From a virus: a stretch of 43,730 bases of DNA. The position numbers and the translations under genes are program-made. Shown here one piece after another: positions 11,427-38,216 of the stretch. Every line of letters starts with the position of its first letter. The stretch's first letter is position 1. Below the pieces are notes generated by a model, which searched no databases, was not told where the DNA came from, and worked only from the letters and a program-made list of their open reading frames with translations. The DNA is taken from IMG/VR virus record IMGVR_UViG_3300003885_000027, positions 1-43,730 of that record, one strand, 5' to 3'.

Positions 11427-12158
11427 TCAAAATCCTAGTTTCGTGGTGGTCCCTAATTCGCTGCTTCCCACCGTCCCCAATAACCAGAACGCTTCTGTGG
11501 AAGCGGGCGTCACCCAGTAGGTCCAGATAATCGCTGCACCGTTCGGAGTCGGCCGCAGGAACATCTCAGTGCCGTTTATGAAGAACTCTTCGCTGATCCC
11601 GCTCACGCTTTCACTGACGTCGATACGGTCGCCGGGTTCCAATGCCAAACCTGCATCCAGCATGGCCTGGGAACGATGTCCCGGAATGCTGAAAGTCTCC
11701 AGTCGCGTTTTCGGGGCTGAGCGCCGGCTGAGTACGTTATCTGCGAAATCCTGCCCCACCAATGGGTCGTCCTGATAGCTCAGCCGCAATCGCTCGGTAC
11801 GCATGAAATGATCGGACTGGGATTGAAGATCCTCAGCGGTGGACTCCACCGGGTCGTAGATACGGATGGCATCTCCACGGGCCTGCAGAATCGTGATGTG
11901 GCCGGTCGTACCGCCGCTGTTCGTCAGAACATATTCCACGGTGGTCGCACCGTAAGTAGCCGTGATCGTCAAATCGTCGTTCAGGTCGCCTCCGCCACCA
12001 GTGCTGCTGCTGAACTCGTAATCGGTTCCCTTCAAGGGGGTGATCATGTTGTCGCCCGCTATACGCGCATCCCGGTTGCTCGGATCACTGAACTTGCCTT
12101 TGATGGTGCGCGTCTCGGTGGGGTTGATCTGGATCGTGGTCTGCAACGTGTAGAGCAC
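11427..12158 (-). CDS. phage tail protein, C-terminal part (probably continues from the upstream frame)
   Basis: 243 residues from GTG at 12158. Text such as LYTLQTTIQINPTETRTIKG, GDNMITPLKGTDYEF and HITILQARGDAIRIYDPV is typical of the second half of minor tail/hub proteins, not of a protein start. The frame is open upstream to 12207 and adds residues YPQQSGSDE before the GTG. The upstream 501-residue protein loses sensible sequence exactly where this begins, so the two probably form one ~730-residue protein through a -1 frameshift or a sequencing error. A GGAAG motif 7 nt before GTG leaves independent initiation possible. Confidence 0.65.
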   Translation of the reverse strand: MLYTLQTTIQINPTETRTIKGKFSDPSNRDARIAGDNMITPLKGTDYEFSSSTGGGGDLNDDLTITATYGATTVEYVLTNSGGTTGHITILQARGDAIRIYDPVESTAEDLQSQSDHFMRTERLRLSYQDDPLVGQDFADNVLSRRSAPKTRLETFSIPGHRSQAMLDAGLALEPGDRIDVSESVSGISEEFFINGTEMFLRPTPNGAAIIWTYWVTPASTEAFWLLGTVGSSELGTTTKLGF

Positions 12159-13564
12159 TTCATCGCTTCCACTCTGTTGCGGATATTGCGCTCGCTGCGT
12201 GGGGCTTTCATGGCAATCAGGTCCGCCTGCACAAAGGTCTTTTCAACGGTCTGATTCTTTACGCGCTCGTGCCGATCCTGCCATTTCAGCAACCCACCCT
12301 GATCTGTATCTCCGATCACAAAACAGTAGCCAAACTCGCTCAACATGACCCGGCTCATCCCGGCAAAGGCCGTGACGCGCTCGTCCCGCAAATCGTCACC
12401 GGCATAGGCAAAGGTTTCCTGTCCTACCGCAAAGCTGCGCTTAACGGGTCCCATAGCCACGTTGTCAACGATGCTTCCCATGAACACATCGCTTCGGACG
12501 TTCTTGCCAAGTGCCAGCAAGCTCATCTTGTGTAAGGTAGCTGCGGCCATCCAGTCCAGGCTCTGCACTTTTACCCTTCGGGTGCGTTTTATACCTGGCT
12601 CTGGGTCGATCAGATTGATGCGCCCCCGATGCTTTACGTAGCTGGTGGCACCCTCGGTGAGCTTCAGCCGGGTTTCAATGCCGATCTCAAATCCGGTGCG
12701 GGCGTTGGCGTGGTCCGGCGAGTAGTAGCCCTCCAGCCCTCCGCTGTTGCTGTCATCGTTCTTGAGCCAGAATTCCATGCTGCCGGTCCCGCCTATCCGG
12801 TCGCCCTCCTCCTGTCCCATGATTCCGTATCGGTTGCGGATGCCTTCTCGCTTTCGCACGTCCGCCAGGACATCGGTCCAGAACGGACCTCCGGCTGTGA
12901 GCCAGGATGCACCCGTGATCGTGCCATCCGCCGTTCCTCCGCTCTTGCTGTCGTTGGCGGTCGTGCCACTGCCTTCATCCAGCTTCCAGTAACCAGCCAG
13001 GTTGGCCTCATTTCCAACCAACTCGACCTCCATGTTAGCGAGTACCTCTGCAGCGGATCGAGCATCACTCCACAGCCGCACATCGCGGATCTTCCCGTCG
13101 AAATAGAACTGCGTTCCCTCTTTGTCAGCTCCGATGCTAAGAACCGCCGCGTTGCCGACCGGATCCCCGGTGACGCTAGTGTTCTGTCCAACCTGCCCTC
13201 CGTTCCAATAGAGAGTGACCGTGTTAGCGGTTGTATCGAACACACCTGCTACATGCTGCCAAATTCCCTTTTCCAGCGTTGCGCTACTGTCCAAGGTCGT
13301 TGTCCCCAGGTCCCGCGTCGTCATTCGAATGGTACGTGCCGCGCTGGCTCCAATAGACAATGCCCAGCCCGCGCTGCCAGTGTCCTTAGAAAATATACGC
13401 ATCTCAGTACCGGGCAGGAGGTCCGGCTTGATCCAGGCCTCAATGCTGAAGCTACTGGTTTGATCCAGCACATCCCCCATATCGACTTCATCGTTCGTCC
13501 CGTCGAAGTCAAGGATGTCATCCTTGAGCCTCAGATCCAGCGTGACGGTATCTGGGAATGCCAT
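12059..13564 (-). CDS. LamG-containing phage tail hub-like protein, N-terminal part
   Basis: 501 residues as read. About residues 15-190 are a LamG/concanavalin domain (FDGTNDEVDMGDVL, FSIEAWIKPD, GKIRDVRLWSDARS). Residues about 235-465 are a tail hub-like region (WLKNDDSNSGGLEGYYSP, RVKVQSLDWMAA, FGYCFVIGDTDQGGLLKWQD). The last ~33 residues (KCSTRCRPRSRSTPPRRAPS...) are Arg/Ser/Pro-rich and unlike the rest, as expected for out-of-frame translation. The next frame continues with normal tail protein sequence. It follows the tape measure gene directly, where distal tail and hub proteins are encoded. Confidence 0.7.
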   Translation of the reverse strand: MAFPDTVTLDLRLKDDILDFDGTNDEVDMGDVLDQTSSFSIEAWIKPDLLPGTEMRIFSKDTGSAGWALSIGASAARTIRMTTRDLGTTTLDSSATLEKGIWQHVAGVFDTTANTVTLYWNGGQVGQNTSVTGDPVGNAAVLSIGADKEGTQFYFDGKIRDVRLWSDARSAAEVLANMEVELVGNEANLAGYWKLDEGSGTTANDSKSGGTADGTITGASWLTAGGPFWTDVLADVRKREGIRNRYGIMGQEEGDRIGGTGSMEFWLKNDDSNSGGLEGYYSPDHANARTGFEIGIETRLKLTEGATSYVKHRGRINLIDPEPGIKRTRRVKVQSLDWMAAATLHKMSLLALGKNVRSDVFMGSIVDNVAMGPVKRSFAVGQETFAYAGDDLRDERVTAFAGMSRVMLSEFGYCFVIGDTDQGGLLKWQDRHERVKNQTVEKTFVQADLIAMKAPRSERNIRNRVEAMKCSTRCRPRSRSTPPRRAPSKASSVIRATGMRV

Positions 13565-22215: not shown

Positions 22216-25116
22216 CTAGACGTTTGACTTGTGCAACGGGCGGAAATCGCCCACAGGCGCACAGTCGTAGGTCGCGCTAAAGCGCTGGCCGAACATCCGA
22301 ACCTTGTAGCGCAGCTCGTCGTTGGTGAACATCGCTCCGGAGCGCTCGTCCTCTGCTGAGAACAGTTCCGGCGTTCGCCGGCCTCGTAGCCAGATCAGGT
22401 AGATCGCCGGGAACTGCGCGGGATCCGCTACCAGCGCCCAGTTGTCGGTGTCAGTCCACTCTGGAACCACCATCGTCTGGAAGCTGTTACGGAGCGTGTT
22501 CGCGGTCTGCATCTGGCCGCCGCTGGTTGCCCCACCATCTTCGCCGGGTACCATCTGGCTCAAGCGGATTTCCTCAGCTGTGTTCTCGGTGTCGGCCGGG
22601 ACCAGTAGGAACTTCGGGCCGATATTGAGCCGCTTGCCGTTGCCCAGGGTCTGGTCGGTCTGCACTCGCATCGCGGTTCGAGCCGTTATGAAGGATGCGT
22701 AGCTCAGAGCCGTGGTCAGCAAGTTAGCGTGTCCGCCAGCCGAGCCAATCGCCGTAGCGTTGAACAGCGCGCCTGTATCTGCCAGCACCGGTCCAGCGGC
22801 CGTGTTGACCGTGAAGACGTTGCTGACTAGGCCGCTGATCTCGTTGTACCAGGCATTCGAGAGCCGTCGCGGGATAGCGCGCAGGATATTGATCTTGTCC
22901 CGCAGGAAAGTCTCCAGCGTCACCCCGATGTAGCCACCGCGCTTCACGAACGCCGCGGTTTCCTCTTCGTCCGCCCACGACAGTTCAGTGTAAGCATCGC
23001 CCTCAGCCATCACATTCAGGCCACCGATCCCATACACTCGGATCAGGGTCGCGTTGTCCAGCGTGTCCACGTCTTCCTGGGTCACGATGGGCTCCCACCA
23101 GCGATGGCGCACCGAATAGTCGGCGGCCAGTAAAAGGTTGACCGCGTTCTTCACAATGCTCGAAACGGAGCTCGTGGTAACTGCCGCTTCGGTCAGACGC
23201 TGGTTGCGCATCTTCCCATCGATAGCCGCGTCCACGTCGCCCATCAGGTCATAGAACCACTCACTCAAACGAACCGGCTTCGGGAAGGCCGGCATGCCAG
23301 CCTCCACATAGCGCCCGATCGCCTCAGAGAATCGCTGAGGGGCATAATGATCCTGCTCCTCGTCCGACTTGCCCTTCTGTTCCTTGGCCGTGGTAACGAT
23401 CTTGCCAAAGCCCGTCGGGCCTGCCAGCAAGCGCAGGAAAGCCATCTCGTACTCATCCCAGGCGGTCACCGGACTGACGTTGATGTTGTGTGCCTCGGGG
23501 ATGCGGACGGTGCCGCTCTTAGATAGCTCGCTCAACATCTCGCGCTGGCTCTTGATCGCAGTTTCAAGGTCCTTCGGCTCATATACCGAGTCCTTGAACT
23601 GCTCTGCGATCACGGTCCGGGTAGGCTTCGGCAGCCCGCTCTCGGCGAGCGTTTCCACCAGCTCGCTCTGTGAGGCCTTGAGAGCCAACGATTTCTCCAG
23701 CTTGGCTGCCCTGGCTGCGGTCGCCTGTGCTTCCTTGGCGGCCTTCTCTGCGCGTGCGACCGCATCCTTCACCGCCTGAGGCGTATCGTCGTCCGTGTCA
23801 TCGTCCTCATCGCCACCATCTTGCGCGTCGATGAAACGCTGCACATCTGCCTCGGTGATCTGGCCTTCGTCACCACTGCCTTCGATTTCAACCTCGGACA
23901 GGTCGATCTCGTTTTCTTTGGCCAGCGCAACGGCTGCTTCGGTGGCCTGGATCTCGTCCTCTTCAGACTCGTCCTCGGCCTCAAGCGCCTCCAGGCGCTC
24001 GGTGAGTGGAGACAGCTTCTCTTCCAATGCCTCACCCAACATCTTCAAAAGTTCTTTCGGTTCCATATCCATTACCTCCTTGTATGGAGTCTGGGCTGCG
24101 ACCAATCGCGCCAGTCGTCCTCCGGCTGCCGGATCTGCGACCACGTCCACAGAAAGGGCCTTGGTGATCTTCTCGACCACCTGCATCACGGTCCCTCCCA
24201 GCGCCTTGATCGCTCGGGTTGCTCCGTCGCCGAGTGCATCGATACTTAGTCCGATTGAGTCGAGCACTTCGGCATCGTATGCTTCCACCAGCTTCTTTCG
24301 CAGCTTTGCGTCAATGACTTTCAGCGTGCCTTTCACAGCGTTGGCCGTCTTGTCCCAAAACGGGTTAATGATGACCCCCACCCACTCCTCTTTGATCGAG
24401 CGCATTCCCTGCTTTGCCTCGAACTCTTCGTCGGTCAGGTGGTTGTCATAAACCTTGACGCCCTCAAACAGTGGCACGCTTTTCTTGAGGCCGTCCGCTG
24501 AGTACAGCCGTCCGTTCTTGCTTCTAACGTATGTCTTGCCTCCCTCTGTCACGACATCGCTGTCGCTGTCCGGGCCGATGATCGTGACTTCCCATTCGGT
24601 CCCACGCTTGTCTTCGTCTTCGTCGTCCGCTTCCAGCAGCTTGAATGCCGCAAGGGCTTCGCTGATCGGGATCTGCTGATACTTCTCCAGCTCCTGCTCC
24701 AATTTCGCCATAGCATCCCCTTCTGCTTCGCGCTGATCTACGACCTTGCCACCCTTGAACATCTTCGCCTTGTTGGCGCTCGCGATCTTCTTGCCCATGA
24801 TCGCCCACTCGGCCGTAGAGTAACCTCCGGCTTTTCGGTTAGCTGGATTATTGAATCGGGTGATGGCGTTGACTGCCCTAGAGGTGGGGCTTAACGGATA
24901 GCGGTAATTTACAGGATCTGCGAACTGACCATCGGAGACGCTGGCATACTTAGACGGCTTTGTGACGTTGCCGCCCTTTTTGATCGCGATGCCGTAGCGA
25001 CCAGCTCGAGCCTTCTGAGCTTTCTTTTCAGCCGCGGTAGCTTCAGCTACATGCTGATGCAACTTTCGCTCGGTGCGGCGATTCTTACGACTGCGGCTTT
25101 TCCTGCGTCTGGCCAA
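22216..25116 (-). CDS. prohead protease - scaffold - major capsid protein fusion
   Basis: 966 residues from TTG 25116; GGAGGTG ends at the right distance for this start, and the GTG at 25122 overlaps the ribosome site. Order: basic N-terminus; a DUF6582-like segment (about 55-115, YASVSDGQFADPVNYRYPL...IMGKKIASANK); a prohead protease (about 175-335) with His226 in YDNHLT and Ser291 in IGLSIDA, plus KALSVDVVADPAAGG; a Glu/Asp/Ala-rich coiled-coil scaffold (about 350-520); then an HK97-type capsid domain (about 550-966). Within the scaffold, LAKENEIDLSEVEIEGSG...GQITEADVQRFI looks like a peripheral subunit-binding domain. Cleavage between scaffold and capsid is expected during maturation. Confidence 0.85.
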   Translation of the reverse strand: MARRRKSRSRKNRRTERKLHQHVAEATAAEKKAQKARAGRYGIAIKKGGNVTKPSKYASVSDGQFADPVNYRYPLSPTSRAVNAITRFNNPANRKAGGYSTAEWAIMGKKIASANKAKMFKGGKVVDQREAEGDAMAKLEQELEKYQQIPISEALAAFKLLEADDEDEDKRGTEWEVTIIGPDSDSDVVTEGGKTYVRSKNGRLYSADGLKKSVPLFEGVKVYDNHLTDEEFEAKQGMRSIKEEWVGVIINPFWDKTANAVKGTLKVIDAKLRKKLVEAYDAEVLDSIGLSIDALGDGATRAIKALGGTVMQVVEKITKALSVDVVADPAAGGRLARLVAAQTPYKEVMDMEPKELLKMLGEALEEKLSPLTERLEALEAEDESEEDEIQATEAAVALAKENEIDLSEVEIEGSGDEGQITEADVQRFIDAQDGGDEDDDTDDDTPQAVKDAVARAEKAAKEAQATAARAAKLEKSLALKASQSELVETLAESGLPKPTRTVIAEQFKDSVYEPKDLETAIKSQREMLSELSKSGTVRIPEAHNINVSPVTAWDEYEMAFLRLLAGPTGFGKIVTTAKEQKGKSDEEQDHYAPQRFSEAIGRYVEAGMPAFPKPVRLSEWFYDLMGDVDAAIDGKMRNQRLTEAAVTTSSVSSIVKNAVNLLLAADYSVRHRWWEPIVTQEDVDTLDNATLIRVYGIGGLNVMAEGDAYTELSWADEEETAAFVKRGGYIGVTLETFLRDKINILRAIPRRLSNAWYNEISGLVSNVFTVNTAAGPVLADTGALFNATAIGSAGGHANLLTTALSYASFITARTAMRVQTDQTLGNGKRLNIGPKFLLVPADTENTAEEIRLSQMVPGEDGGATSGGQMQTANTLRNSFQTMVVPEWTDTDNWALVADPAQFPAIYLIWLRGRRTPELFSAEDERSGAMFTNDELRYKVRMFGQRFSATYDCAPVGDFRPLHKSNV

Positions 25117-25119
25117 GCG

Positions 25120-25126
25120 CACCTCC
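25120..25126 (-). promoter_or_regulatory. ribosome binding site selecting the capsid TTG start
   Basis: GGAGGTG is complementary to the 3' end of 16S rRNA over seven bases. Spacing from GGAGG to TTG 25116 is 5 nt, while the GTG at 25122 lies inside the motif, so TTG is preferred. Confidence 0.65.
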
Positions 25127-25897: not shown

Positions 25898-26153
25898 CCC
25901 GACCACTGCCTCGTTGCTCCAAACCCATCGCTGGCGGGTAAGACGTATACAGAACGTCATGCCCAACGTGTTCCTGTTCCATATGCAGCGCCATCAGAGA
26001 ATCTCCTCCCGGCCCTATCAGTTCCAGTCCACACCAGAAACAGCGCCGCACAGTGAACAGGCGCGCGATGTCGGTTGCTTGAGGAGTGCCCAACCTCGCC
26101 AGCGGCCAGAGCGGTTCATCCCAATGCCAGTCCAAGGTGAAGGCTACACTCAT
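25890..26153 (-). CDS. small protein with C2H2-like zinc motif
   Basis: 87 residues from ATG 26153 (ATGA overlap with the upstream stop). The C-terminal half has CFWCG, 16 residues, then HMEQEHVGH, which fits a CCHH zinc finger. The N-terminal part is Trp-rich (LDWHWDEPLWPLARL). Nucleic acid binding is plausible. Confidence 0.5.
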   Translation of the reverse strand: MSVAFTLDWHWDEPLWPLARLGTPQATDIARLFTVRRCFWCGLELIGPGGDSLMALHMEQEHVGHDVLYTSYPPAMGLEQRGSGRDA

Positions 26154-26365
26154 CCGTCCCAATCAATCGCCTGGCCGCAGCTTGGGCAGTAAGCCCAATG
26201 TGCCAGCAACGGAGCTTCACAAATCCCACATTCGCCTTCGGCATACTCGGAAAGCAAATCTAGGATGACCTTCATCGCCTTCGTCTTCCGCGGAAGTGCC
26301 GCACCGCGCGGGAACACTTGCGTCCGCGATGTGCTCTCGCTGGTCACTTCTATTGGTCGTTTCAC
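26150..26365 (-). CDS. zinc-ribbon protein
   Basis: 71 residues, GTG start overlapping the kinase stop (GTGA). The last ~25 residues carry CGIC...CPSCG, a compact zinc ribbon; the N-terminal ~30 are basic and disordered. It is one of at least five small zinc-ribbon proteins in the packaging/head region. Confidence 0.6.
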   Translation of the reverse strand: MKRPIEVTSESTSRTQVFPRGAALPRKTKAMKVILDLLSEYAEGECGICEAPLLAHWAYCPSCGQAIDWDG

Positions 26366-26745
26366 CGCCAGCCTCCCTCCTCGAATGGATACTCATCGCT
26401 GGCCTCTTTCCCCCCTGCGGCATACACCCAGCGAACCTCGGGCAGGATCTCTTTCCGTATCCGCTTCCGCAGATCCGCGTACGGGCAAATCGTTGCCACC
26501 GCCACGTTGAAGCCCTGAATCCAGAGCAGGCGAGCGATCTTGGCAATACGTAGGTTCTGCTCGTAGCGGTCAGCTTTCGTGAAACCCAGCGTCCAGCACT
26601 CTCGCAGATCGTCCCCGTCCAAGATGATCTTGTTTGGTACATCCAACGTCAGTGCCAGCTTTGTCTTGCCTGATCCGCTGTTTCCATGAAACCAAACAAC
26701 ATCTCCAGGATGGTCGCTGGGAATGACTCGGTGGATTGAGCCTAT
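26362..26745 (-). CDS. APS kinase-like P-loop enzyme (cysC-like), probable ATA start
   Basis: 127 residues if started at ATA 26745, which overlaps the upstream stop as ATAG. Walker A is GNSGSGKT (21-28); IILDGDDLRECWTLGFTKADR (40-60) and NLRIAKIARLLWIQGFNVAVATICPY match the LDGDNxR, LGFSxADR and ENIRR helix of adenylylsulfate kinases in order and spacing. The family phosphorylates APS to the sulfate donor PAPS. The protein is shorter than usual (about 200). The frame is open back to about 26780 but contains no ATG, GTG, TTG or CTG before Walker A; the first is TTG 26646, which would remove the P-loop. AAGGGGG lies 5 nt before ATA. Alternatives: ATT start at codon 8, or a pseudogene. Confidence 0.6.
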   Translation of the reverse strand: MGSIHRVIPSDHPGDVVWFHGNSGSGKTKLALTLDVPNKIILDGDDLRECWTLGFTKADRYEQNLRIAKIARLLWIQGFNVAVATICPYADLRKRIRKEILPEVRWVYAAGGKEASDEYPFEEGGWR

Positions 26746-27146
26746 GACAGCCCCCTTATCTGCCTGGCTAGGCGCTGCCGCTCAGCGATGTCCAGCTCCG
26801 CCAGATCGCGCGTATGCCACACCAACAGCGCCGAATTTGGATTCCGCCCCAGCTTCGCCCGCAGCCAGTCAAGCATCTTCCGCCACCACAGACGTTCTGC
26901 CAGGTTTTGCGCCAGCTGGTACTTCAACTCGAACACCTCATAACGCTCCTGGAGTTCAATCCGGTAAGCGCGCGCCTCGTGGTCGGTCGTGAACTTCTGC
27001 CTGGCCAGTCGGCTACTGCCGTTGATCATCCCGATCACCGCGCCGTAGGCTTTGCCTTGGGCAGTTGTCAACTTCAATACGCCCGTGCGTCGGTTGACTG
27101 TCTTGCGCGGAGCGTAGCTCACGGAACTAAAACTGCTGTTTGACAT
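26742..27146 (-). CDS. hypothetical helical protein
   Basis: 134 residues from ATG 27146 (earlier in-frame start at 27170 lies inside the upstream gene). Basic N-terminus, then long helices (ARAYRIELQERYEVFELKYQLAQNLAERLWWRKMLDW...). Ser/Arg-rich and mainly alpha. Overlaps both neighbours. No family recognised. Confidence 0.55.
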   Translation of the reverse strand: MSNSSFSSVSYAPRKTVNRRTGVLKLTTAQGKAYGAVIGMINGSSRLARQKFTTDHEARAYRIELQERYEVFELKYQLAQNLAERLWWRKMLDWLRAKLGRNPNSALLVWHTRDLAELDIAERQRLARQIRGLS

Positions 27147-27486
27147 AATCCCAAAATGACCCGTCCTCAAAGTCTATTGTCAGCTGGTTGGGCATTGACG
27201 CGGCCCCACGATAGAGCGCCTCACGGAATGTCTCATATTCATCGTGATTAAAAATCAGCCTCCCGTTGTGGGCGCCGTTGAAGAAACAGGAAACGTATAC
27301 ATGTTTGCTGTTCACACGACTAACCTTCACACATAGCCTCTTTGCTTTTACCGAAATTCTCCGAGAACTAGCAATTTCTCCTGCCTTAATAAGACGCCGA
27401 TGAGCCTCTTGCGTTGTCAGCTTTTCTGGCAGAAAGCTATTGATCAGGTCATCAATCAACATTTCATGACTGTGTTTTCGAGACAC
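27127..27486 (-). CDS. hypothetical protein
   Basis: 119 residues with an N-terminal helical region (LIDDLINSFLPEKLTTQEAHRRLIKAGEIA), which could be a small DNA-binding domain, and a C-terminal beta region (RLCVKVSRVNSKHVYVSCFFNGAHNG, LIFNHDEYETFREALYRG). Overlaps the following gene by 20 nt. Role unknown. Confidence 0.5.
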   Translation of the reverse strand: MSRKHSHEMLIDDLINSFLPEKLTTQEAHRRLIKAGEIASSRRISVKAKRLCVKVSRVNSKHVYVSCFFNGAHNGRLIFNHDEYETFREALYRGAASMPNQLTIDFEDGSFWDYVKQQF

Positions 27487-27629
27487 TTTTCTAGCTCTGC
27501 AATGTGTTCTTTGATCGCTTCGTCATACTTCCCATCGCTGTTATCAAAATGCTTTAGGAGAAAGACGAGTGCATGGGCGGCGAAGACGAGATCGTAAACC
27601 TCCTTTGAGATTAGAAATGGTTTAGTCAT
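27456..27629 (-). CDS. small hypothetical protein
   Basis: 57 residues, ATG 27629, stop TGA 27456-27458, overlapping the next gene start by 31 nt. Text EVYDLVFAAHALVFLLKHFDN followed by a charged helix EAIKEHIAELEKCLEN predicts two helices, one rather hydrophobic. First gene of the overlapped run. Function unknown. Confidence 0.45.
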   Translation of the reverse strand: MTKPFLISKEVYDLVFAAHALVFLLKHFDNSDGKYDEAIKEHIAELEKCLENTVMKC

Positions 27630-27676
27630 CGACCTTGTTCAGATCCAAAATGATGACTTCTGTACAACTGGCATGC

Positions 27677-28720
27677 TCATCTCGCCACTCGCAACCTTTC
27701 CGCTTTCTGCGCTCCCATCAGGATCCGCGAACCTTCGTAGCGCACGCGTAAACCTTCCGCCGCGCGCCGCGCCTTTTCACGATCTACCTGATCGTTCAGC
27801 GGGCCGATCAGCTCGTCGACTGGCCCCCAGGACTCGCGATAAGGAACCGAATCGCATCTGCAGTTGATTTGTTCCCGAAGCGGCAATGTAGGATCAAGCG
27901 GACCATCAGCTTCGTGACCTCCCACGATAAACTTCCCGTCTACTGGAACCACCTGGCCGTGCGCGTCGATGTGTGTATCCCGTGTGCGCCAATCTCCTGT
28001 ACTTAACCAAATCTTCTTCAGGTCAGGGAAACGTCCGAGCTCATCCCGCATGCGATCACGCCCCGCCATATTCTGCGCCCTCATCAATTCAGTGCGGAAG
28101 ATACGCTCAGCCTTGGCACTGATGCCCGTGGTTCCGAGCTCCCGGAAGCCCGACAAGTTCCGGATCCCGACGATATGGGTGATGTTCTGCATGGCTTGGA
28201 ATGGAGTCAATTGCCCGATCCAAGCCGCGATCACCTGCCCTCGGATGGCAGCTTGCATTTCCGTAGTCACCGCCACGATACGGTCGAAGGTAAACGCCCG
28301 GTGAACAGCATCCAGCACCACCGGCCGGGCTGGCGGCAGTATCAAAAAGCCCGGCGACGGCGCTGGCTCAAGGAAGAACGGGTCATGTACCCCGCCCGGT
28401 ATCTGCGTTCCAATCTCTAATAGCGCGGCCGTACGGGCCTCGCCAGCCAGCCAGGCCTCTTGATGAGCCTGGACACCCAAACGCTGAATGTCGTTTGCGG
28501 CTTGCAGTACGATGTCGTCGATCTCCGCCAGAATGTCGTCGAGCTCACCCTGCCAGGCTTCGGTGTTGATGGCCCGATTGCGTAGGCTGCGATGGAGTTC
28601 GTCGTAGCGTAGCAGCAATGCTCTGCGCGCATCATCGGTGACGGCATCGCCAGCTGAGAGCAGCCGCTCAAGCTCGCGGCGGAATTCGGCTTCGCTTTGC
28701 TCAGTCAGCCGTTGCGGCAT
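27677..28720 (-). CDS. SPP1 gp7-like minor head morphogenesis protein
   Basis: 347 residues from ATG 28720, which overlaps the upstream stop; the longer frame to 28831 is low quality. Helical N-terminal region (EFRRELERLLSAGDAV, LDDILAEIDDIVLQAANDI), then the signature STGDWRTRDTHIDAHGQVVPVDGKF with LREQINCRCDSVPY of the gp7/Mu F-like domain. These proteins bind the portal and DNA within the prohead. Position after the portal gene is typical. Confidence 0.85.
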   Translation of the reverse strand: MPQRLTEQSEAEFRRELERLLSAGDAVTDDARRALLLRYDELHRSLRNRAINTEAWQGELDDILAEIDDIVLQAANDIQRLGVQAHQEAWLAGEARTAALLEIGTQIPGGVHDPFFLEPAPSPGFLILPPARPVVLDAVHRAFTFDRIVAVTTEMQAAIRGQVIAAWIGQLTPFQAMQNITHIVGIRNLSGFRELGTTGISAKAERIFRTELMRAQNMAGRDRMRDELGRFPDLKKIWLSTGDWRTRDTHIDAHGQVVPVDGKFIVGGHEADGPLDPTLPLREQINCRCDSVPYRESWGPVDELIGPLNDQVDREKARRAAEGLRVRYEGSRILMGAQKAERLRVAR

Positions 28721-28916
28721 CGGACTTTTCCGGGAATGTGACGATCGTGAAATGTGTTTCAGTCGCGTGCAGGGCCGGATGGTACGCCACGGTCGTTCCG
28801 CAATGGTTACAGTAATACACCGCTTTGCCATGCGGCAATTCCTGTTGATTCTGCGGATCGGCCGTCCAGCTGCGTTTCCCGCAGTTTGGGCAAACGCTGT
28901 CCGTTTGTTCAGTCAA
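28701..28916 (-). CDS. zinc-ribbon protein
   Basis: 71 residues; TTG start overlaps the upstream stop (TTGACTGA). CPNCG and CNHCG about 26 residues apart give a typical zinc ribbon, followed by beta strands ETHFTIVTFPEK. Small zinc proteins beside portal genes are common in phages, but the role is not known. Confidence 0.6.
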   Translation of the reverse strand: MTEQTDSVCPNCGKRSWTADPQNQQELPHGKAVYYCNHCGTTVAYHPALHATETHFTIVTFPEKSDAATAD

Positions 28917-29073
28917 GCGTGCCCGCCGGGAAATCCCTCATTAGCTGTTTCCAGATCGGCACGAGCAGATGACGCTTGCCAGACAAGCGTTTCAATTCTC
29001 GCTTAGCCGCGGCCAGAGTCAGCAGTCTGCGCTCTTTACGGGAATAAACTTTGCCGCCCCAGATCACTCTCAC
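28909..29073 (-). CDS. small basic protein
   Basis: 54 codons: GTG 29073 (GTGA overlap with the upstream stop; GGAGG 6 nt before), stop TGA at 28909-28911. Sequence is Lys/Arg/Leu-rich (GGKVYSRKERRLLTLAAAKR), predicting a basic helix that may bind nucleic acid or the membrane. Its precise fit between two overlapping genes supports it. Confidence 0.5.
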   Translation of the reverse strand: MRVIWGGKVYSRKERRLLTLAAAKRELKRLSGKRHLLVPIWKQLMRDFPAGTLD

Positions 29074-29285
29074 GTCGGCCTCCGGTATTCGCTGTCGTCG
29101 ACTGGATGCTGTGGCAGCGAATTCATAATGCGCGCTAACTCCTCAGGTTCCAATACCTCACCGCAATCGCAGAACACTTCCTCATAGCCGGGCTTCCAAA
29201 AATGCTTATGCTCGTGCTTCACGAACGGATTCGTTTCTTGGCTTCCAATCGGCTTGAGCCTTGCGCCTAACCCATCCTTTCCCAT
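29070..29285 (-). CDS. small hypothetical protein with Cys/His cluster
   Basis: 71 residues. HEHKHFWKPGYEEVFCDCGEVLEP has a histidine cluster and a CDC pair that could bind one metal. Directly follows the portal gene with 1-nt overlap. No family recognised. Confidence 0.5.
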   Translation of the reverse strand: MGKDGLGARLKPIGSQETNPFVKHEHKHFWKPGYEEVFCDCGEVLEPEELARIMNSLPQHPVDDSEYRRPT

Positions 29286-31150
29286 TATCCCGCCTCCTCT
29301 GCCGTTGGCTCTGTCATCCCGCCTGGCTCGCGCCCGTTCTCCTCGCCAGCCGGCACGTCCGGAATCTCCCGATCCAGTCCTTTCAACAGGTTTGCCAGAG
29401 CGTTGGTCTCCGCGTCCTTACCTTCCAGCGCGGCTAATCCAGCTTCTACATCAACTTTGACGCCCAACATGTCGGACACAACCGCCACGAGTTCCAGCGC
29501 GGCGCGGGCTGGGATCAGGTTAATTATGTCCAATCGGAAGATCGCTTGAGCCACGCTCTGTAGTGCTTGACTAGCGGCACGCGTATCGCTGATGTTGATA
29601 TCCGGCATCTTGATCTTGAAGGCCTCCCGCGCCAGAACGGTATCTCCAGTCATCTTGCCTTCGTTGTCCAGACGGGAAACTTCTTCAGGTAGCTGTCCCA
29701 GCGCCACCAGCACATCGATCTGGTACTGGCACATCCGCATGAACATACGCTGCACGAACGCCTGTCGTCTGCTCAGCATGCGATGCGTCGGTTCGCCCAT
29801 CTCTCGAGCAGTTGCGCGATTCTGGCTCCTCCCCTCACTTAACCAGTGCTCTGGAACACGCATCCCGCCGGCGATGAAGATCCGCAGCGCTCGTATCATG
29901 ACCTCCACATCCGTTGTCTTCAGGTCCGGGTTCTTGGCACTCAACTTGATGTTCTGGTTGTGAGCGAAGACGCTATTGGGCTTAGCACCGCGCACCTTCT
30001 TGGCCTGGTAACTCAAGTTCTTCTCAGTCTCGGCTGCGCCCTCGGTGCCGCCCTCTACTTCCAAATCCCACACGAAGGTATTTAGTAATTGCACATGCTC
30101 GGCCGCGTCGAAGAACAGCTGGTCGTATCGGTCCAGCCAGTCGATCAGCGGCAGTAGATCGCCACGGCCACGGATGCCCGTACTCAGCTTGTTCACCTGG
30201 AACAGGAAGCACTCTCCATCAAAGACCTCGTCAAGTACCGGCTCCTTTACTTCCATCACTCGACCCGTGCCAGGAATCGGCTTGTTGTCCTTTGTCCTGA
30301 ATTCTGTCAGTCGCCACTCCTTGCCTTCTTTCAGCCGTCGATTGATTTCCTTGCGGTCCAGCGCGGCCTCCGTGATGCGCCCACTAGTACCTTCACCCTC
30401 TTCCCGACCCATCGCCTTTTCGACCCGGTTGACCAGTTTCCGGTATTCCGCCAGGTCCCGCATGCCTTCCTCGGTTCCAGCCGCACTTTCCGCCTTGATA
30501 ACCTTGAAGATCGGGCCGTCGTCTATGCCTCCGGTCGTGCTCTTGAGCCGCACTGCCAGAACGTCTTTGCGATTCAGCGGATGCGTGATGATGCTCGCGA
30601 TCTGATTGGGGTCTACCGGACCCAGCCTGAGCCGGCCATCTGCCACTATTCCAATGTCCACGCCATCCCGCACAAAAGCTAGCAGTAGCTGCTCACCGAA
30701 CAGCGCGAGTTCTCTCACATAGCTCTCGGCCCCGTGGCCGTCGAAGTCGTTGACTGGGTCTTCCCAGAAAGCTCGCAAGGCCTCGGCTACATCTTCGTCC
30801 TCGGCCTGAATGACGGCTCCGTCTCCCAACACGTAGTCAAGGATGATTTCGATCAGTGCCTTGGCTAGCGGGTTGGTGTTCCAGAGCCGATACGCCGCTT
30901 CGTTGGCTTTCTCCTGGCTGAGCGAACTCAGGTCCCGCGGTGTCTGTTCGAGCTGTCGGTAGCCGAGTTTGATCGCCCGCCCGTCGCTGGTGTAAACGAC
31001 TGGCTCGTCCTCTCCGCTCAGGTCATATGCCTCCTGAAAGCCCTGCTTGGCAGCTTCCCGCGCTCGGGCTGCAGCTTCCTCTGCCGGAACACCACCGAAG
31101 ATACGGACCAGCGCGGCTCGTAGCCCTCGTTGTTCAATTGATTCTGACAT
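29285..31150 (-). CDS. portal protein
   Basis: 621 residues. Pattern of a large siphovirus portal: TNPLAKALIEIILDYVLGDGAVIQ, the LFGEQLLLAFVRDG stem/wing region, RGRGDLLPLIDWLDRYDQLFFDA (clip and crown approach), then ALRIFIAGGMRVPEHWLSEG and SQNRATAREMGEPTHRMLSRRQAF before helical barrel segments. Forms the dodecameric DNA channel. Follows terminase large subunit and sulfotransferase genes. Confidence 0.9.
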   Translation of the reverse strand: MSESIEQRGLRAALVRIFGGVPAEEAAARAREAAKQGFQEAYDLSGEDEPVVYTSDGRAIKLGYRQLEQTPRDLSSLSQEKANEAAYRLWNTNPLAKALIEIILDYVLGDGAVIQAEDEDVAEALRAFWEDPVNDFDGHGAESYVRELALFGEQLLLAFVRDGVDIGIVADGRLRLGPVDPNQIASIITHPLNRKDVLAVRLKSTTGGIDDGPIFKVIKAESAAGTEEGMRDLAEYRKLVNRVEKAMGREEGEGTSGRITEAALDRKEINRRLKEGKEWRLTEFRTKDNKPIPGTGRVMEVKEPVLDEVFDGECFLFQVNKLSTGIRGRGDLLPLIDWLDRYDQLFFDAAEHVQLLNTFVWDLEVEGGTEGAAETEKNLSYQAKKVRGAKPNSVFAHNQNIKLSAKNPDLKTTDVEVMIRALRIFIAGGMRVPEHWLSEGRSQNRATAREMGEPTHRMLSRRQAFVQRMFMRMCQYQIDVLVALGQLPEEVSRLDNEGKMTGDTVLAREAFKIKMPDINISDTRAASQALQSVAQAIFRLDIINLIPARAALELVAVVSDMLGVKVDVEAGLAALEGKDAETNALANLLKGLDREIPDVPAGEENGREPGGMTEPTAEEAG

Positions 31151-31159
31151 CGTTACCTC

Positions 31160-31891
31160 CTAAGCCAATTCGCGCTCGGCCAATGTCCGCAGCGGCCCGT
31201 CAAATTCCTGCTCCCAATCACCCACCCGGCCAGCCCTGAACGTCGGACTTCCGCTGGTCAAGATGCTGCCGACCATGTCATCCTCTATTCCCGCTGACCA
31301 CGCTTCCCCGGTACGCTCTCGCAGATACTCAAGAATTCGGATCGCGCTCGCATTCACGGCTCCTCGTAACATGCCGTAGGTCAACGTCAGCACCCACGGC
31401 AATCGCTCCCATGCCGCGTACTGCCGATACCAATCTCGCAGACTCGGCCAGCCGGCGTAGCCCTCTATCACTGCCTGTATTCGGCGCTCATGACTCGGCA
31501 GCGCTCGGTAAGTCCACTTCCGCGGGTGCGGGAAATTCTGATCATCGTCGCTTTCGATATGATAGGCCATGCTCACCGCCACGTCCCGCAAATCTCGGTG
31601 AAGGAAAATCACTGGCCAGCCCATATCTTCCAGGAATCCGGCTACGGACTCGATAGCTGCCAGATGTCCCCAAACCTGCTCGCCATCCTGAAGATCGTTC
31701 AGATCCTTGAGTACATCTGTGTCCGATCTCAGGCCCGGCCCCCAACCTCCGTTCTCATGCGTGGTCATCTGGCGCTCGCTGTAGTAGCCACCGAATAGTG
31801 GACTCGGCTCCGCCAGTGGGCGCATCATCTGCGCCAGCAGGTGCAGGCCGCTCTTAGGGAAGCTCGTGACGATGATCGGTGCTATTGCCAC
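31160..31891 (-). CDS. PAPS-dependent sulfotransferase
   Basis: 243 residues. TSFPKSGLHLL (9-19) is the 5'-phosphosulfate-binding loop; FLHRDLRDVAVSMAYH (96-111) is the 3'-phosphate-binding segment with Arg and Ser in the expected places; FRAGRVGDWEQEF (218-230) is the conserved Rx-G-xx-GDW motif. These three blocks define the sulfotransferase_1/3 family, which moves sulfate from PAPS to hydroxyls or amines of sugars, lipids or peptides. It overlaps the terminase gene by 10 nt and precedes the portal gene by 9 nt, so it is expressed with packaging genes. The acceptor is unknown. Confidence 0.85.
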   Translation of the reverse strand: MAIAPIIVTSFPKSGLHLLAQMMRPLAEPSPLFGGYYSERQMTTHENGGWGPGLRSDTDVLKDLNDLQDGEQVWGHLAAIESVAGFLEDMGWPVIFLHRDLRDVAVSMAYHIESDDDQNFPHPRKWTYRALPSHERRIQAVIEGYAGWPSLRDWYRQYAAWERLPWVLTLTYGMLRGAVNASAIRILEYLRERTGEAWSAGIEDDMVGSILTSGSPTFRAGRVGDWEQEFDGPLRTLAERELA

Positions 31892-33708
31892 GCGCTCTTC
31901 CGCTTCCCGTCGTCGTCCTCTTCGTCCCAGCCAGCTTGTTCGCCGGGTATATCTACCGTCCGCCCTCGTTCTTCTTCATCACCGCCCAGCATCGTGGAAG
32001 TTTCACCTTCCGCCACCGGACCCAGAAGTTCCATCGCCGCTCGACAGTAGATGTCTGCATGCACGTAATGGTCATCGCCGATCCGCACCCAGGTCGCATA
32101 CGGATTTCCTCCGCCGTCCAGGTTCACGACGCGGTTCACTCTCGCGTAGTGCCGGTAGTATTCCGGTACCTGGCTCTCGATGCCTTCGGGGTTGACAATC
32201 TCGCCCGCTAAGTAATCTCCGCGCAACCCGTCGAAGTAGCGCGTCCGATCAATCTCGATCGTGAACTTATCCGATGGCTTTTCGCGAGCCGCTTCGGATC
32301 GTTTGCTGCCCGTCTTGCCGGTCGCGTAATAAGCTACCTTCGCCCGGCCCTCGTGACTCGCGGCCCACTCCATCGCCTTGTGCACTTCAGGTAGCGCGTC
32401 CATGACCGCCAGGCGCACGTCGTACCTCTCAACCAGATCGTCCAGATCATCGAAGCTCGCTTCCCCAATGAACACCGCCTGCCGCACGCGCTGGCCAGTT
32501 GCAGGATCCTTCGCGAACTTACGGATAACGACGTGAAGAACAGCGCCCACGTCTACCCCCATCATACAGCGGTCGTCGCCGATCGGCATCCGGTACGGGC
32601 GTTCAGCCTGTCTCAGCAGCCCTTCATGGAAACCGCCGCCCCTCGGCTGATACGGAAGTCCCAGGTCCTGATTCCACCATTCCTTGCGCTCGGTTTCGTC
32701 GTAGGTCTGGCCCTTCTTGATGAGCTGATAGAGATCGACGCGTGGACTTACCAATCGATTGAGGTGGTAGCCGCGAATGTCGCTGCCCGGGTTGCTCGGG
32801 ATCCATTTCCCGGCTCCAACTCGGTCCAGCTCCTTGCCGCATTTGAGACAGCCGACGAATGGATTTTCTGGACTTCCCTTTTTGTGGAACCACTTCGTAG
32901 GCCGACCTGCGCCGTCAACGTCTGTGATGAGATTGACAAACGGATCGAGAGGCTGCTCGGTGTTGCAGTGACCGCACCTCACGTGCCAGCGGTGGTGGTC
33001 GCTGGCTTGCAACATGGCATCGATCCCAAAATCCGGGAGAGTAGGAGTGCTGATCCAGCGGCGCCACTTCAAAGCGCTGTGGCCTAATCGTTTCTCAGCG
33101 ATGGCTGGAGCACGTCGGTCGATCTCGTCCAGCTCGTCGAAGATGATGAGGTCGATAGCCGCGATTTTTAGGTGCGGTGCTCTGCCGTCCGGACGAACGC
33201 TGGCATGACGCAGGTAGAAGAAACGATTGCGGATTCGTTTCAGTGTGGACCGGTCGCGGGCCGCGGCCCTATAACCTTCACTTCCCACGGTGGATCCGAT
33301 AAGGCCGGCGATATATGCGCTGCCTTCGATTGCCATTCCAATTCGCGCGGTGCTGAAATCTGCAACATCGCCAGTCGATGGCAACAGATATAGAACGTTC
33401 GCCGCCTTCGCATCGCAAGCCCAAATCGCATCGGAAATTGCCCACTCCGAAGCACCTAGCTGACTTGCTTTTGAAATAACAATTTCGGGATGCTCATCCT
33501 CATAAATTGCTTCGAGGTACTGATGGTCTTGAAAGTCGAGTTCGAGATCCGGCCAGAGGTATCTTCGATGTTTACGTACCCAGTCTGCGCGACGGCTTGG
33601 ATGGCCCACACCAGACTCCAACCGTCGCCGAGCTTCGGCCCAAACCTCTACCTTCAACTGGTCCATAGCTCTGGGAGAAAAGGGAAGGTCAGTTGCTGTC
33701 TTCAGCAT
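31882..33708 (-). CDS. terminase large subunit, lambda gpA-like
   Basis: 608 residues from ATG 33708. ATPase part: adenine motif DFQDHQYLEAIYED, a non-canonical P-loop SKASQLGASEW, Walker B LIIFDELDEID, coupling motif STPTLPDFG. Between ATPase and nuclease is a zinc site CGHC...CLKCGKEL as in the gpA family. Nuclease part starts MMGVDVGAVLHVVI (first acidic) with VRLAVMDALPE and YVHADIYCRAAMELL later. It packages DNA through the portal. Exact start uncertain (ATG 33663 is possible). Confidence 0.9.
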   Translation of the reverse strand: MLKTATDLPFSPRAMDQLKVEVWAEARRRLESGVGHPSRRADWVRKHRRYLWPDLELDFQDHQYLEAIYEDEHPEIVISKASQLGASEWAISDAIWACDAKAANVLYLLPSTGDVADFSTARIGMAIEGSAYIAGLIGSTVGSEGYRAAARDRSTLKRIRNRFFYLRHASVRPDGRAPHLKIAAIDLIIFDELDEIDRRAPAIAEKRLGHSALKWRRWISTPTLPDFGIDAMLQASDHHRWHVRCGHCNTEQPLDPFVNLITDVDGAGRPTKWFHKKGSPENPFVGCLKCGKELDRVGAGKWIPSNPGSDIRGYHLNRLVSPRVDLYQLIKKGQTYDETERKEWWNQDLGLPYQPRGGGFHEGLLRQAERPYRMPIGDDRCMMGVDVGAVLHVVIRKFAKDPATGQRVRQAVFIGEASFDDLDDLVERYDVRLAVMDALPEVHKAMEWAASHEGRAKVAYYATGKTGSKRSEAAREKPSDKFTIEIDRTRYFDGLRGDYLAGEIVNPEGIESQVPEYYRHYARVNRVVNLDGGGNPYATWVRIGDDHYVHADIYCRAAMELLGPVAEGETSTMLGGDEEERGRTVDIPGEQAGWDEEDDDGKRKSAWQ

Positions 33709-34288
33709 GTTGATCTGATAACTCTGCGATCGCATTCGCAACCATGTTCTCGAACAATTCCGACGGTGGAACTCCGGCCTGCTCCGCTTCTTGTTTCCAG
33801 GTCATCTCAAAGCCCTTGATCCGTTCACCCATTTCCATAGCAATGTCGTTCAGCGTTTTCCTGTACTGCTCAATAAGCGGGGAATTGAAGCGGACAAGAT
33901 CCACTCTCTCGGCGAACTCGCCAGACCCAATTTGCTTTACGTCTGGCAGCCACCGTTTGTCTTCGGTGTTTAGCTCTTCCCACAAGAGATCTCCAAGTTT
34001 GACAAGCTGCCGGACCCGCTTCGGCCAGAAGGCGAAGCCAGCTTCAATGGCTCCAGCCTTTATGGCCTCGAACTCTGCATGGGCGATTTCCGCCTCTCGC
34101 AGTGCGACTCGATCCTGCCACCGATGCTTTGTCGACCAAGTCTTGAGGGTCCTTAGATTGGATGTCGGCGGTGATTGTTTGGTGTCCTTTTGGCGTTTGT
34201 ATTGCCCTGCTAGGGCAACCAAACTCCGCCCTGGCCCAAGATTGAAGTAGTCCTCAAACGCCTGCTTGGCCTTATTGGTTTCTCGCAT
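33689..34288 (-). CDS. terminase small subunit
   Basis: 199 residues. The N-terminal ~60 have helix-turn-helix character (RSLVALAGQYKRQ, PPTSNLRTLKTWSTKHRWQDRVALREAE), and the phrase WSTKHRWQDRV is common to small terminases. A long central helix suits the oligomerisation ring. It immediately precedes the large subunit, with a 20-nt overlap, and follows an 80-bp period-5 repeat. Confidence 0.8.
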   Translation of the reverse strand: MRETNKAKQAFEDYFNLGPGRSLVALAGQYKRQKDTKQSPPTSNLRTLKTWSTKHRWQDRVALREAEIAHAEFEAIKAGAIEAGFAFWPKRVRQLVKLGDLLWEELNTEDKRWLPDVKQIGSGEFAERVDLVRFNSPLIEQYRKTLNDIAMEMGERIKGFEMTWKQEAEQAGVPPSELFENMVANAIAELSDQHAEDSN

Positions 34289-36662: not shown

Positions 36663-38216
36663 CTAAAAGAATCCGACGGTTGCTCTCAACCGCGCTTCGG
36701 CCATTTCAATATAGTTCCGCTCCATCTCGACACCGGTAACTTCATCCCATCCGGCCTGCGCGGCACCAATCATTTCACTACCGCTTCCAGAGAACGGGAT
36801 GAGGACACGTCTGGTTTTTCCCTTTTGCTTGGGGGGTAGCGACAGCGTAGACAGGTATCTTAAGAGTTCAAGGGGTTTTACTGTTGGATGGATGCAGCCG
36901 CGCGCACGTTCGCTCCTATCTAGCTGTTCGTACTCGCTCAGACTGATCCGCTCAAATCCATCATCTGTCCGTTTCCACCAGAAGTTTTCAAGTCCCTTGT
37001 CTTTTTCTCCCCGGCTGGCCTTGGCTGTGTAGAAAAAGCGGGAGGGGCCACCAACATCCGCGTAAGTGTCTTGGTTCGTTGCGTTGCCTCCCCAGACACC
37101 AGCGTAGACAGCGTGTTCTGGGCGCGGCGCTCTGGTAGTGCGAGCCTTCATTAAGCCGGACGACAATTCGCCCGCCCGATCGTCCAGCATCCGAACCGGA
37201 CAACCCGGAACGCACGCATATCGATCAACTGTTTCGGGCGGCATCTGCTCCGACTGGTAATCCTCTCCTTCTGCGTTCCCGAACGGCATCATGCCCTGCT
37301 CGAAGCGATTGATCGTCCGGCCCTCGACTTCAACCTCTCCGACTTTCACACAATCGTCCTCATGGCTGAGGATGAAGTTTGCGGGCCAGCGGCCAGAATC
37401 ATGGCGCTCACTACGATACTGGAGCATTCCCGGCGAGGCATTGAACTTTCTCTTCGTGTCAATGCCCTCATTGCTGGTCCCCCACACCCCGGCCCCTTTT
37501 GTTCCTGCAATCCTCGACCCGTCAATGTTCAGTGCCCCGGTCCCAAACTCAGTCGCCAACTGCGCAAAGGTCTTACCATCCCGAGGCGCTCGGCAGAGAT
37601 AGATCGGCTCCCAGGCTGGCTTGAGGGCTGTGCCGTAGCCATTCCAGGTTTCAGCATTCTTGGTAACTGGCCCCGCCGTATCATCGTATTCAGACTGGTA
37701 AACACCAAGACTCTCGGTTTCGCTTGAACCTGCGCCTTTGGCTTTTCCTATGACCTTTCGTTCCTCCCCAGCAATCTTGTCCAGCCCCTTGCTTATATCG
37801 TGCGACTTTGGAAATCCTTGGCCGTAGAGCCAGAGGAGAGTATCCGCGATCTCAAACCCGCCACGTTCCAGCCCAACGCCGAGGTGGTGAAACGTACGAG
37901 TGCCTCCAAAGAACAGGCAAACCGCGCCGGGAAATAAAGCCTTCTCAATTAGGAGCTTGGCCCACTCACTCACCCAATCTTGATAATGCTCCAGCGAGTC
38001 GAATCCGTCCCACTTCTGGCCCATGAAACCACTTGCCAAGCGCGTATAGCGCCCGTCGCTTCCCCCATGTGTAGGCACGCTTCCGTTCTTGCCAAATCGC
38101 TTAGTGATTGAAATCAACGCGTAGGGTGGATCTGAAAGAATCGCGTGAAACCGCGGGCCTTCGTAAGATCGGAGCCATTCAATGAGCTCAGATTCAACGA
38201 TCTGCCAGTTACTCAT
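36663..38216 (-). CDS. DNA methyltransferase (adenine/cytosine-N4, DPPY type)
   Basis: 517 residues. Motif IV ILSDPPYAL near residue 30 precedes motif I RVLIPFSGSGSEMIGA near 475, with HPTVKPLELLRYL (motif X region) just before it, the beta-class order. Between them is a long region with GTGALNIDGSRI and SGRWPANFILSHEDDC, typical of phage site-specific methyltransferases. DPPY suggests N6-adenine or N4-cytosine modification. No restriction enzyme gene is adjacent, so protection from host restriction is the likely use. Confidence 0.85.
   Translation of the reverse strand: MSNWQIVESELIEWLRSYEGPRFHAILSDPPYALISITKRFGKNGSVPTHGGSDGRYTRLASGFMGQKWDGFDSLEHYQDWVSEWAKLLIEKALFPGAVCLFFGGTRTFHHLGVGLERGGFEIADTLLWLYGQGFPKSHDISKGLDKIAGEERKVIGKAKGAGSSETESLGVYQSEYDDTAGPVTKNAETWNGYGTALKPAWEPIYLCRAPRDGKTFAQLATEFGTGALNIDGSRIAGTKGAGVWGTSNEGIDTKRKFNASPGMLQYRSERHDSGRWPANFILSHEDDCVKVGEVEVEGRTINRFEQGMMPFGNAEGEDYQSEQMPPETVDRYACVPGCPVRMLDDRAGELSSGLMKARTTRAPRPEHAVYAGVWGGNATNQDTYADVGGPSRFFYTAKASRGEKDKGLENFWWKRTDDGFERISLSEYEQLDRSERARGCIHPTVKPLELLRYLSTLSLPPKQKGKTRRVLIPFSGSGSEMIGAAQAGWDEVTGVEMERNYIEMAEARLRATVGFF

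Follow-up and report, generated by a model that had tools for sequence, protein, structure and literature searches.

A sulfotransferase gene in a phage head module and a lidless APS-kinase-like gene in the same leftward block

Introduction

Does a phage that encodes both a sulfotransferase and an APS-kinase-like protein boost its own supply of the sulfate donor PAPS, or do the two genes serve separate ends? The question is raised by two open reading frames in the window, by which we mean the whole 43,730-nucleotide stretch of viral DNA analysed here (IMG/VR record IMGVR_UViG_3300003885_000027). In virome papers, sulfotransferases and cysC appear as loose "auxiliary metabolic genes" whose purpose is unclear. 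The accessible text of PMC10580990, which covers a Sulfotransfer_3 gene, calls the role of sulfotransferase in phages unclear. That gene, which is of another Pfam family than the window sulfotransferase, and the cysC gene of PMC9789665 represent the same enzyme classes as the window pair; the accessible parts of the two papers treat them singly and describe neither head-gene linkage nor lidless kinases.

Results

Gene content of the packaging region

The original prediction described a two-gene sulfation route embedded in the packaging region. Both genes are real and lie where it placed them, on the same strand, 4.4 kb apart with several genes in between:

22216–25122, minus strand: large protease/major-capsid fusion protein (PF25209, NF045541)
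26150–26365, minus strand: small zinc-ribbon-like protein downstream of the kinase gene; homolog in the relative L075, with no kinase before it
26362–26745, minus strand: lidless APS-kinase-like P-loop protein (mini-CysC), 127 aa, ATA start (PF01583, orthologs, AF2, Foldseek)
26743–26745, minus strand: ATA start codon of the kinase gene, overlapping the TAG stop (26742–26744) of the upstream ORF
26751–26757, minus strand: Shine-Dalgarno-like AAGGGGG, 5 nt before the ATA (duplex of −9.8 kcal/mol with the 16S tail)
26742–27170, minus strand: small ORF directly upstream of the kinase gene; none detected in L075
27677–28831, minus strand: head morphogenesis protein, Mu gpF-like (PF04233, phrog_2468)
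29285–31150, minus strand: portal protein (phrog_10963, E 8.3e-36)
31160–31891, minus strand: PAPS-dependent-type sulfotransferase (PF00685), 243 aa, GTG start (HMM, AF2, Foldseek, motifs)
31882–33741, minus strand: terminase large subunit, terL (PF05876, phrog_675, E 4.4e-87)

No ATP sulfurylase was recognised among the window proteins scanned.

The sulfotransferase is intact-looking and belongs to a phage family

The sulfotransferase gene lies between terL and portal, and its 5' end overlaps the end of terL. Its product scored 27.8 bits against PF00685 (gathering cut-off, 22). Of the other sulfotransferase profiles, PF13469 gave sub-cut-off matches only and PF03567 gave none, its control also matching nowhere. 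The AF2 model (pLDDT 92.6, pTM 0.91) has a sulfotransferase fold; the best Foldseek matches were all sulfotransferases (SULT7A1-PAP, E 1.6e-9, TMq 0.66), and the nearest solved structures were PAP/PAPS-bound SULTs. All the PAPS-binding blocks that had been predicted are present: the 5'-PSB FPKSGLH (P12, K13, S14 and G15), the 3'-PB RDLRDVAVS (including R99 and S107) and the C-terminal PAPS loop RxGxxGxW, here TFRAGRVGDW (R219-G221-G224-W226). The catalytic-type His stands in GH76. These elements and the fold are common to cytosolic SULTs of the Sulfotransfer_1 family. Degraded motifs in relatives would have spoken against the prediction; across the viral set, H76 (50/50), R99 (51/51), S107 (51/51), W161 (51/51), R219 (50/50) and W226 (50/50) were invariant, and H76, W161 and the C-terminal motif had played no part in gathering that set. 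From its motifs and model, the window protein is predicted to be an intact-looking sulfate-transferring enzyme of the PAPS type.

The phage family of this sulfotransferase comprises 54 IMG/VR contigs. Among the 53 checked, the gene lay 0.3–3.9 kb downstream of the major capsid protein gene on the same strand in 32, and in the terL–portal interval in 6 near relatives, which together mark it as a head-module gene. In all, 38 of 53 contigs tie the gene to those for the capsid and packaging, a pattern that speaks for a role in assembling the virion or in altering a surface late, rather than in general sulfur metabolism. Viral relatives were up to 48% identical to the window protein, and the cellular relatives found, 25–31%; the family differs from the latter in the shorter window protein and in its placement in phage head modules. 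A phage collection searched for further relatives gave none even at E 10. Among cellular sequences, the nearest relatives are carried by genomes of Bacillaceae and by glycan plasmids of Priestia megaterium, in one of which the relative stands among glycosyltransferase genes with a cysC. A recent host origin was unsupported, since the nearest sequences are from phages and the cellular ones group apart. The sulfotransferases form a real, little-studied phage gene family.

The kinase-like protein lacks the lid of APS kinase

For the second protein, no family or fold scored better than APS kinase, in line with the original prediction. It scored 57.9 bits against PF01583 (cut-off, 21.1), with only profile positions 2–98 of 152 matched, and 59.1 bits against TIGR00455, far below the equivalog cut-off of 138.7. 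Among the best 50 Foldseek matches listed for its AF2 model (pLDDT 91.2), all were APS kinases, PAPS synthases or ATP sulfurylases with an APS-kinase-like domain (best match, E 6.9e-8, TMq 0.71), and its clade falls on the CysC side of the tree. The core fold and the P-loop, LDGDxxR, LGF, DR and IxP motifs are common to CysC; the P-loop reads GNSGSGKT and the LDGDxxR motif LDGDDLR, in agreement with GxSGSGK[ST] and LDGDxxR. In the alignment, the APS phosphosulfate/adenine site retains D45, R48, F55, R60 and I86 (PMC4373884); R48 and R60 were read as counterparts of the phosphosulfate arginines Arg483 and Arg497 of Mtb CysC, and F55, in the LGF loop, as that of its stacking Phe492.

Unlike CysC, the window protein is only about 127 aa long, lacks PF01583 positions 99–152 and has DRYEQ for DRxEN (N to Q). 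An alignment gap covers the entire lid segment in this protein and its family, so that the KGLY and FTGID elements and the residues of RDxKxLY (Arg559, Lys562) and FTG (Phe576) are absent from it. In CysC these three residues hold ATP and APS, as ATP-stacking arginine, catalytic lysine and APS-stacking phenylalanine, and lid closure is essential (PMC4373884). Judged from its sequence, and because it has no lid, the mini-kinase cannot work exactly as a canonical APS kinase does. Its family comprises about 20 viral contigs, and in two members (L174 and L180) the kinase is joined to a cytidylyltransferase-like HxGH domain. The family offers an experiment of nature in which a lid held to be essential has been deleted.

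The kinase frame contains no ATG, GTG or TTG ahead of the P-loop. Ten viral orthologs, 62–71% identical to the window protein, have ATG at exactly the position of the window's ATA, which is unique among 11 close family members; the coordinates are therefore right. The frames and the ATA recur in a second assembly, contig L002, which matches the window at 100% identity along 11,005 bases and perhaps stems from the same reads. Against the orthologs, pS was at least 0.72 (saturated) and pN 0.19–0.26, values that indicate a gene under selection. Two artefacts were considered. A frameshift fusion with the upstream ORF (26742–27170) was ruled out by the orthologs' ATG at the same codon, and a frameshift-cut fragment with its lid further downstream, by the zinc-ribbon ORF in the next frames and the uniformly short close family.

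Kinase and sulfotransferase genes in the same contigs

In the window the two genes are neither adjacent nor fused, and the close relatives at hand, several of them fragments, give no sign of co-inheritance. PF01583 was found in only 1 of 50 sulfotransferase contigs; since most contigs are fragments, its absence from the other 49 is a weak negative. The nearest sulfotransferase phages (records L074–L084, several of them short fragments) had no PF01583 match, and in L075 the head gene and the zinc-ribbon gene both have homologs, but no kinase stands at the corresponding place. Conversely, 9 of the 10 other contigs with close kinase orthologs showed no PF00685 gene.

Pairs do recur in unrelated viruses. 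A PF00685 gene (E ≤ 0.001) was present in 12 of 50 viral kinase contigs, 8 of them over the cut-off, a count that stands without a random-contig background (an attempt with a DnaB query gave five loci only), and in 4 of 20 contigs from the lidless-kinase scan. The genes overlap in L046, L058 and L059 and form one fusion ORF in L070, and in the 8 over-cut-off contigs the gaps between them were shorter than under random placement (Fisher p 0.004). Such pairs, even with other short kinases, suggest that the two proteins may work together after all.

Two neighbourhoods of kinase orthologs were inspected by eye. In marine phage L168, which has no PF00685 match, the ortholog lies amid glycosyltransferase-, sugar-dehydrogenase-, deacetylase- and epimerase-like ORFs; in L162/L163 a nucleoside-deoxyribosyltransferase-like ORF is nearby.

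Discussion

The reading we favour, with a probability of roughly 55%, makes the sulfotransferase a head-module gene, expressed late, whose family circulates among phages. The mini-kinase would be an optional accessory, acquired separately, from a lidless viral family that is conserved. We infer the late timing and a donor drawn mainly from the host's PAPS pool. The enzyme would move a sulfuryl group to a hydroxyl of a virion component or a late-made surface glycan; it could target a small host metabolite instead of the virion. Because the ATP P-loop and the residues that grip the phosphosulfate are retained, the mini-kinase may phosphorylate APS or another small acceptor like it; it would probably be made at a low level from its ATA start and strong Shine-Dalgarno site. 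Of the two-gene route, then, the PAPS-type sulfotransferase in the head module and the recurrence of pairs stand, and the part that falters is the window kinase as PAPS supplier, with its complete lid missing, a weak start and several genes between it and its supposed partner.

If the mini-kinase turned host APS into PAPS for the sulfotransferase, its best family and fold, the retained APS-site residues and the short gaps, overlaps and fusion in other viruses would be explained; we nevertheless hold this to be doubtful, given a lid whose closure CysC cannot do without, the N-to-Q change, the ATA start, the distance between the genes, the nearest sulfotransferase phages without the kinase and a co-occurrence count that lacks a background rate. 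A minority possibility to be kept in view is that the kinase has no role in sulfation and serves glycan or nucleotide metabolism by phosphorylating a sugar, a nucleotide or a nucleotidyl intermediate. It would fit the loss of the acceptor-side lid, the sugar-gene-like surroundings in L168, the deoxyribosyltransferase-like neighbour in L162/L163 and the fusions to HxGH domains, but these domains could equally be ATP-sulfurylase-like, and both the kept phosphosulfate-holding residues and the place in the tree speak against it.

The unique ATA start might also mark a decaying, untranslated copy. We think this unlikely, as the frame is otherwise intact, pN/pS is low and a strong Shine-Dalgarno sequence precedes the codon; AUA starts with extended Shine-Dalgarno motifs are real in S. 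aureus, although expression from them is low (PMC13009471). Sulfotransferase-based modification of phage DNA bases was proposed by Iyer et al. 2013, according to the accessible text of PMC10829341, and the pair could sulfate or phosphorylate a modified base. This is very improbable here: the window proteins scanned include no hydroxymethylase, thymidylate-synthase or TET-like gene, and only an N4/N6 methylase (36663–38216).

A bolder scheme, which we would back only at long odds, is a compact sulfation system belonging to the phages themselves. The head-encoded sulfotransferase would add sulfate to a protein of the capsid or neck, or to the glycan it carries, and would receive its donor from the minimal lidless APS kinase; where that kinase is fused to an HxGH nucleotidyltransferase, as in some viruses, the extra domain could stand in for ATP sulfurylase. 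If true, this would to our knowledge be the first case of a phage sulfating its virion with enzymes that it encodes itself. A haloarchaeal Halostagnicola plasmid likewise places an APS-kinase-like domain, in a CysC-nucleotidyltransferase, beside a sulfotransferase; unlike the window kinase, that protein has a full lid and a fused HxGH domain, and it resides on a cellular plasmid. Elsewhere in the window, the original prediction tentatively assigned two genes at 6.9–8.4 kb to the same surface-modification programme: a DUF115-like gene (PF01973, below its cut-off) and a methyltransferase gene (PF13489, above). Both are real, though of generic kinds.

Sulfotransferase of the head module

The structural genes of the 43.7-kb IMG/VR virus record form a leftward block, in which the positions of the sulfotransferase and the APS-kinase-like gene were verified exactly; 11,005 bases of the window are identical in a second contig, L002.

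31882-33741, leftward, terminase
31160-31891, (-), sulfotransferase, 243 aa
29285-31150, leftward, portal
27677-28831, leftward, Mu-F-like head protein
26362-26745, (-), APS-kinase-like P-loop protein, 127 aa
22216-25122, leftward, protease/major-capsid fusion, 968 aa
13564-16266, leftward, tape measure

In the capsid fusion, an E3-binding (peripheral subunit-binding) domain was predicted at residues 396-428 (PF02817, E 6e-7), an odd feature in a capsid precursor. A Laminin-G/concanavalin-like domain protein (12059-13564) adjoins the tape-measure gene. At 6929-8379, an MptE/DUF115-like ORF (below the cut-off; weak sialyltransferase PHROG match) adjoins a class I methyltransferase, and the two may be a glycan-modifying pair.

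The sulfotransferase matched PF00685 with 27.8 bits (cut-off 22). Its alignment-based AF2 model had a mean pLDDT of 92.6, and the best 50 Foldseek matches listed were all sulfotransferases, mostly PAP- or PAPS-bound (top match E 1.6e-9, TMq 0.66, 18% identity). An alignment-guided scan recovered relatives in 55 viral contigs, including L002, which is identical to the window, and in 18 cellular loci, mainly of Bacillaceae; maximum identity to the window protein was 48% for the viral relatives and 31% for the cellular ones, and nearly all viral sequences separated from those of Bacillota in the tree. H76, R99, D100, R102, D103, S107, W161, R219 and W226 were essentially invariant in 51 viral rows, although conservation in the PKSG and RDxRDV blocks arose partly by construction because the scan patterns covered them; H76, W161 and the C-terminal loop lay outside the patterns.

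The sulfotransferase occupied the terL-portal interval in six contigs (L074-L078 and L084), one of which (L078) starts within that interval. Their portals were 53-55% identical to that of the window, and their terL proteins, where window-like, were 44-58% identical; L074 and L075 carry a different terL type. In 32 further contigs, the major capsid protein gene lay 0.3-3.9 kb upstream of the sulfotransferase on the same strand, and PHROG matches verified upstream major head proteins in L083, L089, L098 and L110. The gene therefore lies in the head module in 38 of 53 contigs, which is our firmest new result. Phage sulfotransferases and cysC are already known, with unclear function (PMC10580990, PMC10829341, PMC9789665). 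A limited literature search, in which absence is weak evidence, found no description of the head-gene linkage or of lidless kinases.

A lidless APS-kinase-like protein

The kinase matched PF01583 with 57.9 bits (cut-off 21.1), limited to profile positions 2-98 of 152. Its AF2 model had a pLDDT of 91.2, and the best 50 Foldseek matches listed were APS kinases, PAPS synthases or ATP sulfurylases with an APS-kinase-like domain. Alignment with full-length enzymes left a clean gap spanning the lid; it opens after strand four and closes at the PFE motif. In Mycobacterium tuberculosis CysC, closing of the lid (552-581) is essential: Arg559 stacks on the ATP adenine, Lys562 contacts the gamma-phosphate and the APS 2'-OH, and Phe576 stacks on the APS adenine (PMC4373884). 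The window kinase has counterparts of the phosphosulfate residues Arg483, Arg497, Asp480 and Ile523, and of Phe492. A dedicated scan found 20 viral contigs apart from L002, all encoding the lidless form except L179, which kept KGLY. The window, L146 and L016 formed one clade on the CysC side of the tree (SH-aLRT 92).

Three of the kinase proteins (L174, L177/L178 and L180) bear an N-terminal HxGH domain, which is PF01467 in L174 and L180. More widely, an HxGH nucleotidyltransferase-like domain is fused, at either end, to many viral APS-kinase-like proteins (L018, L024-L068, L174, L177, L180), and a large viral class with LNADxVR instead of LDGDxxR likewise has no lid. These proteins could be NadR-like or PAPS-synthase-like.

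The frame begins ATA-GSIHRVIP in the window, compared with ATG-GAIHRVIP in ten close orthologs. AAGGGGG ends 5 nt upstream of the ATA and pairs with the 16S tail at -9.8 kcal/mol, the third strongest among ten starts compared; divergence was strongly synonymous (pS 0.72 or more, pN 0.19-0.26). AUA starts with an extended Shine-Dalgarno sequence are documented and result in low expression (PMC13009471). With modest confidence, the gene appears to be weakly expressed rather than dead.

Kinase-sulfotransferase pairing and possible function

The original prediction was a two-gene route in which the kinase makes PAPS and the sulfotransferase uses it; the observation was confirmed and the interpretation partly supported. 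On the positive side, the two ORFs overlap in L046, L058 and L059, and a single viral ORF (L070:2630-3811) encodes both a full-length APS kinase (148.7 bits) and, N-terminal to it, a sulfotransferase-like region whose PF00685 score of 19.6 bits falls below the cut-off. Gaps between the two genes were shorter than under random placement (Fisher p 0.004), and 12 of 50 kinase contigs had PF00685 at E<=0.001, 8 above the cut-off, as counts without a matched random-contig background. The pairing is therefore a real, recurrent viral pattern, of which the window is a loose example. Against the route, PF01583 was found in only 1 of 50 sulfotransferase contigs and in none of the nearest sulfotransferase lineage among them; in L075 the kinase is absent but both flanking genes, head and zinc-ribbon, are present. 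The window kinase has close orthologs in 10 other contigs, of which just G051 carried a PF00685 gene. By eye, the overlapping sulfotransferase/short-kinase genes at L046:2905-4076 and L058:5243-6399 lie within a run of repetitive tail-type ORFs.

Most likely, the sulfotransferase would use host-derived PAPS to sulfate a late product. Its head-module position favours a virion component as target, and the glycan-locus setting of its relatives favours a sugar acceptor. The cellular relatives inspected occur in glycan loci on Priestia plasmids, together with glycosyltransferase and spore-coat genes and, in one case, a full-length cysC. The kinase may phosphorylate APS using an open site, or a different acceptor.

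In the marine phage contig L168 (1830-10650), the ORFs around the lidless kinase, judged by eye, resemble glycosyltransferases, sugar dehydrogenases, deacetylases and epimerases over a long stretch. In two Bacillus genomes (L130 and L131:6741-8753), a related sulfotransferase frame extends to a 670-aa ORF and, judging from its length, may be fused to another domain.
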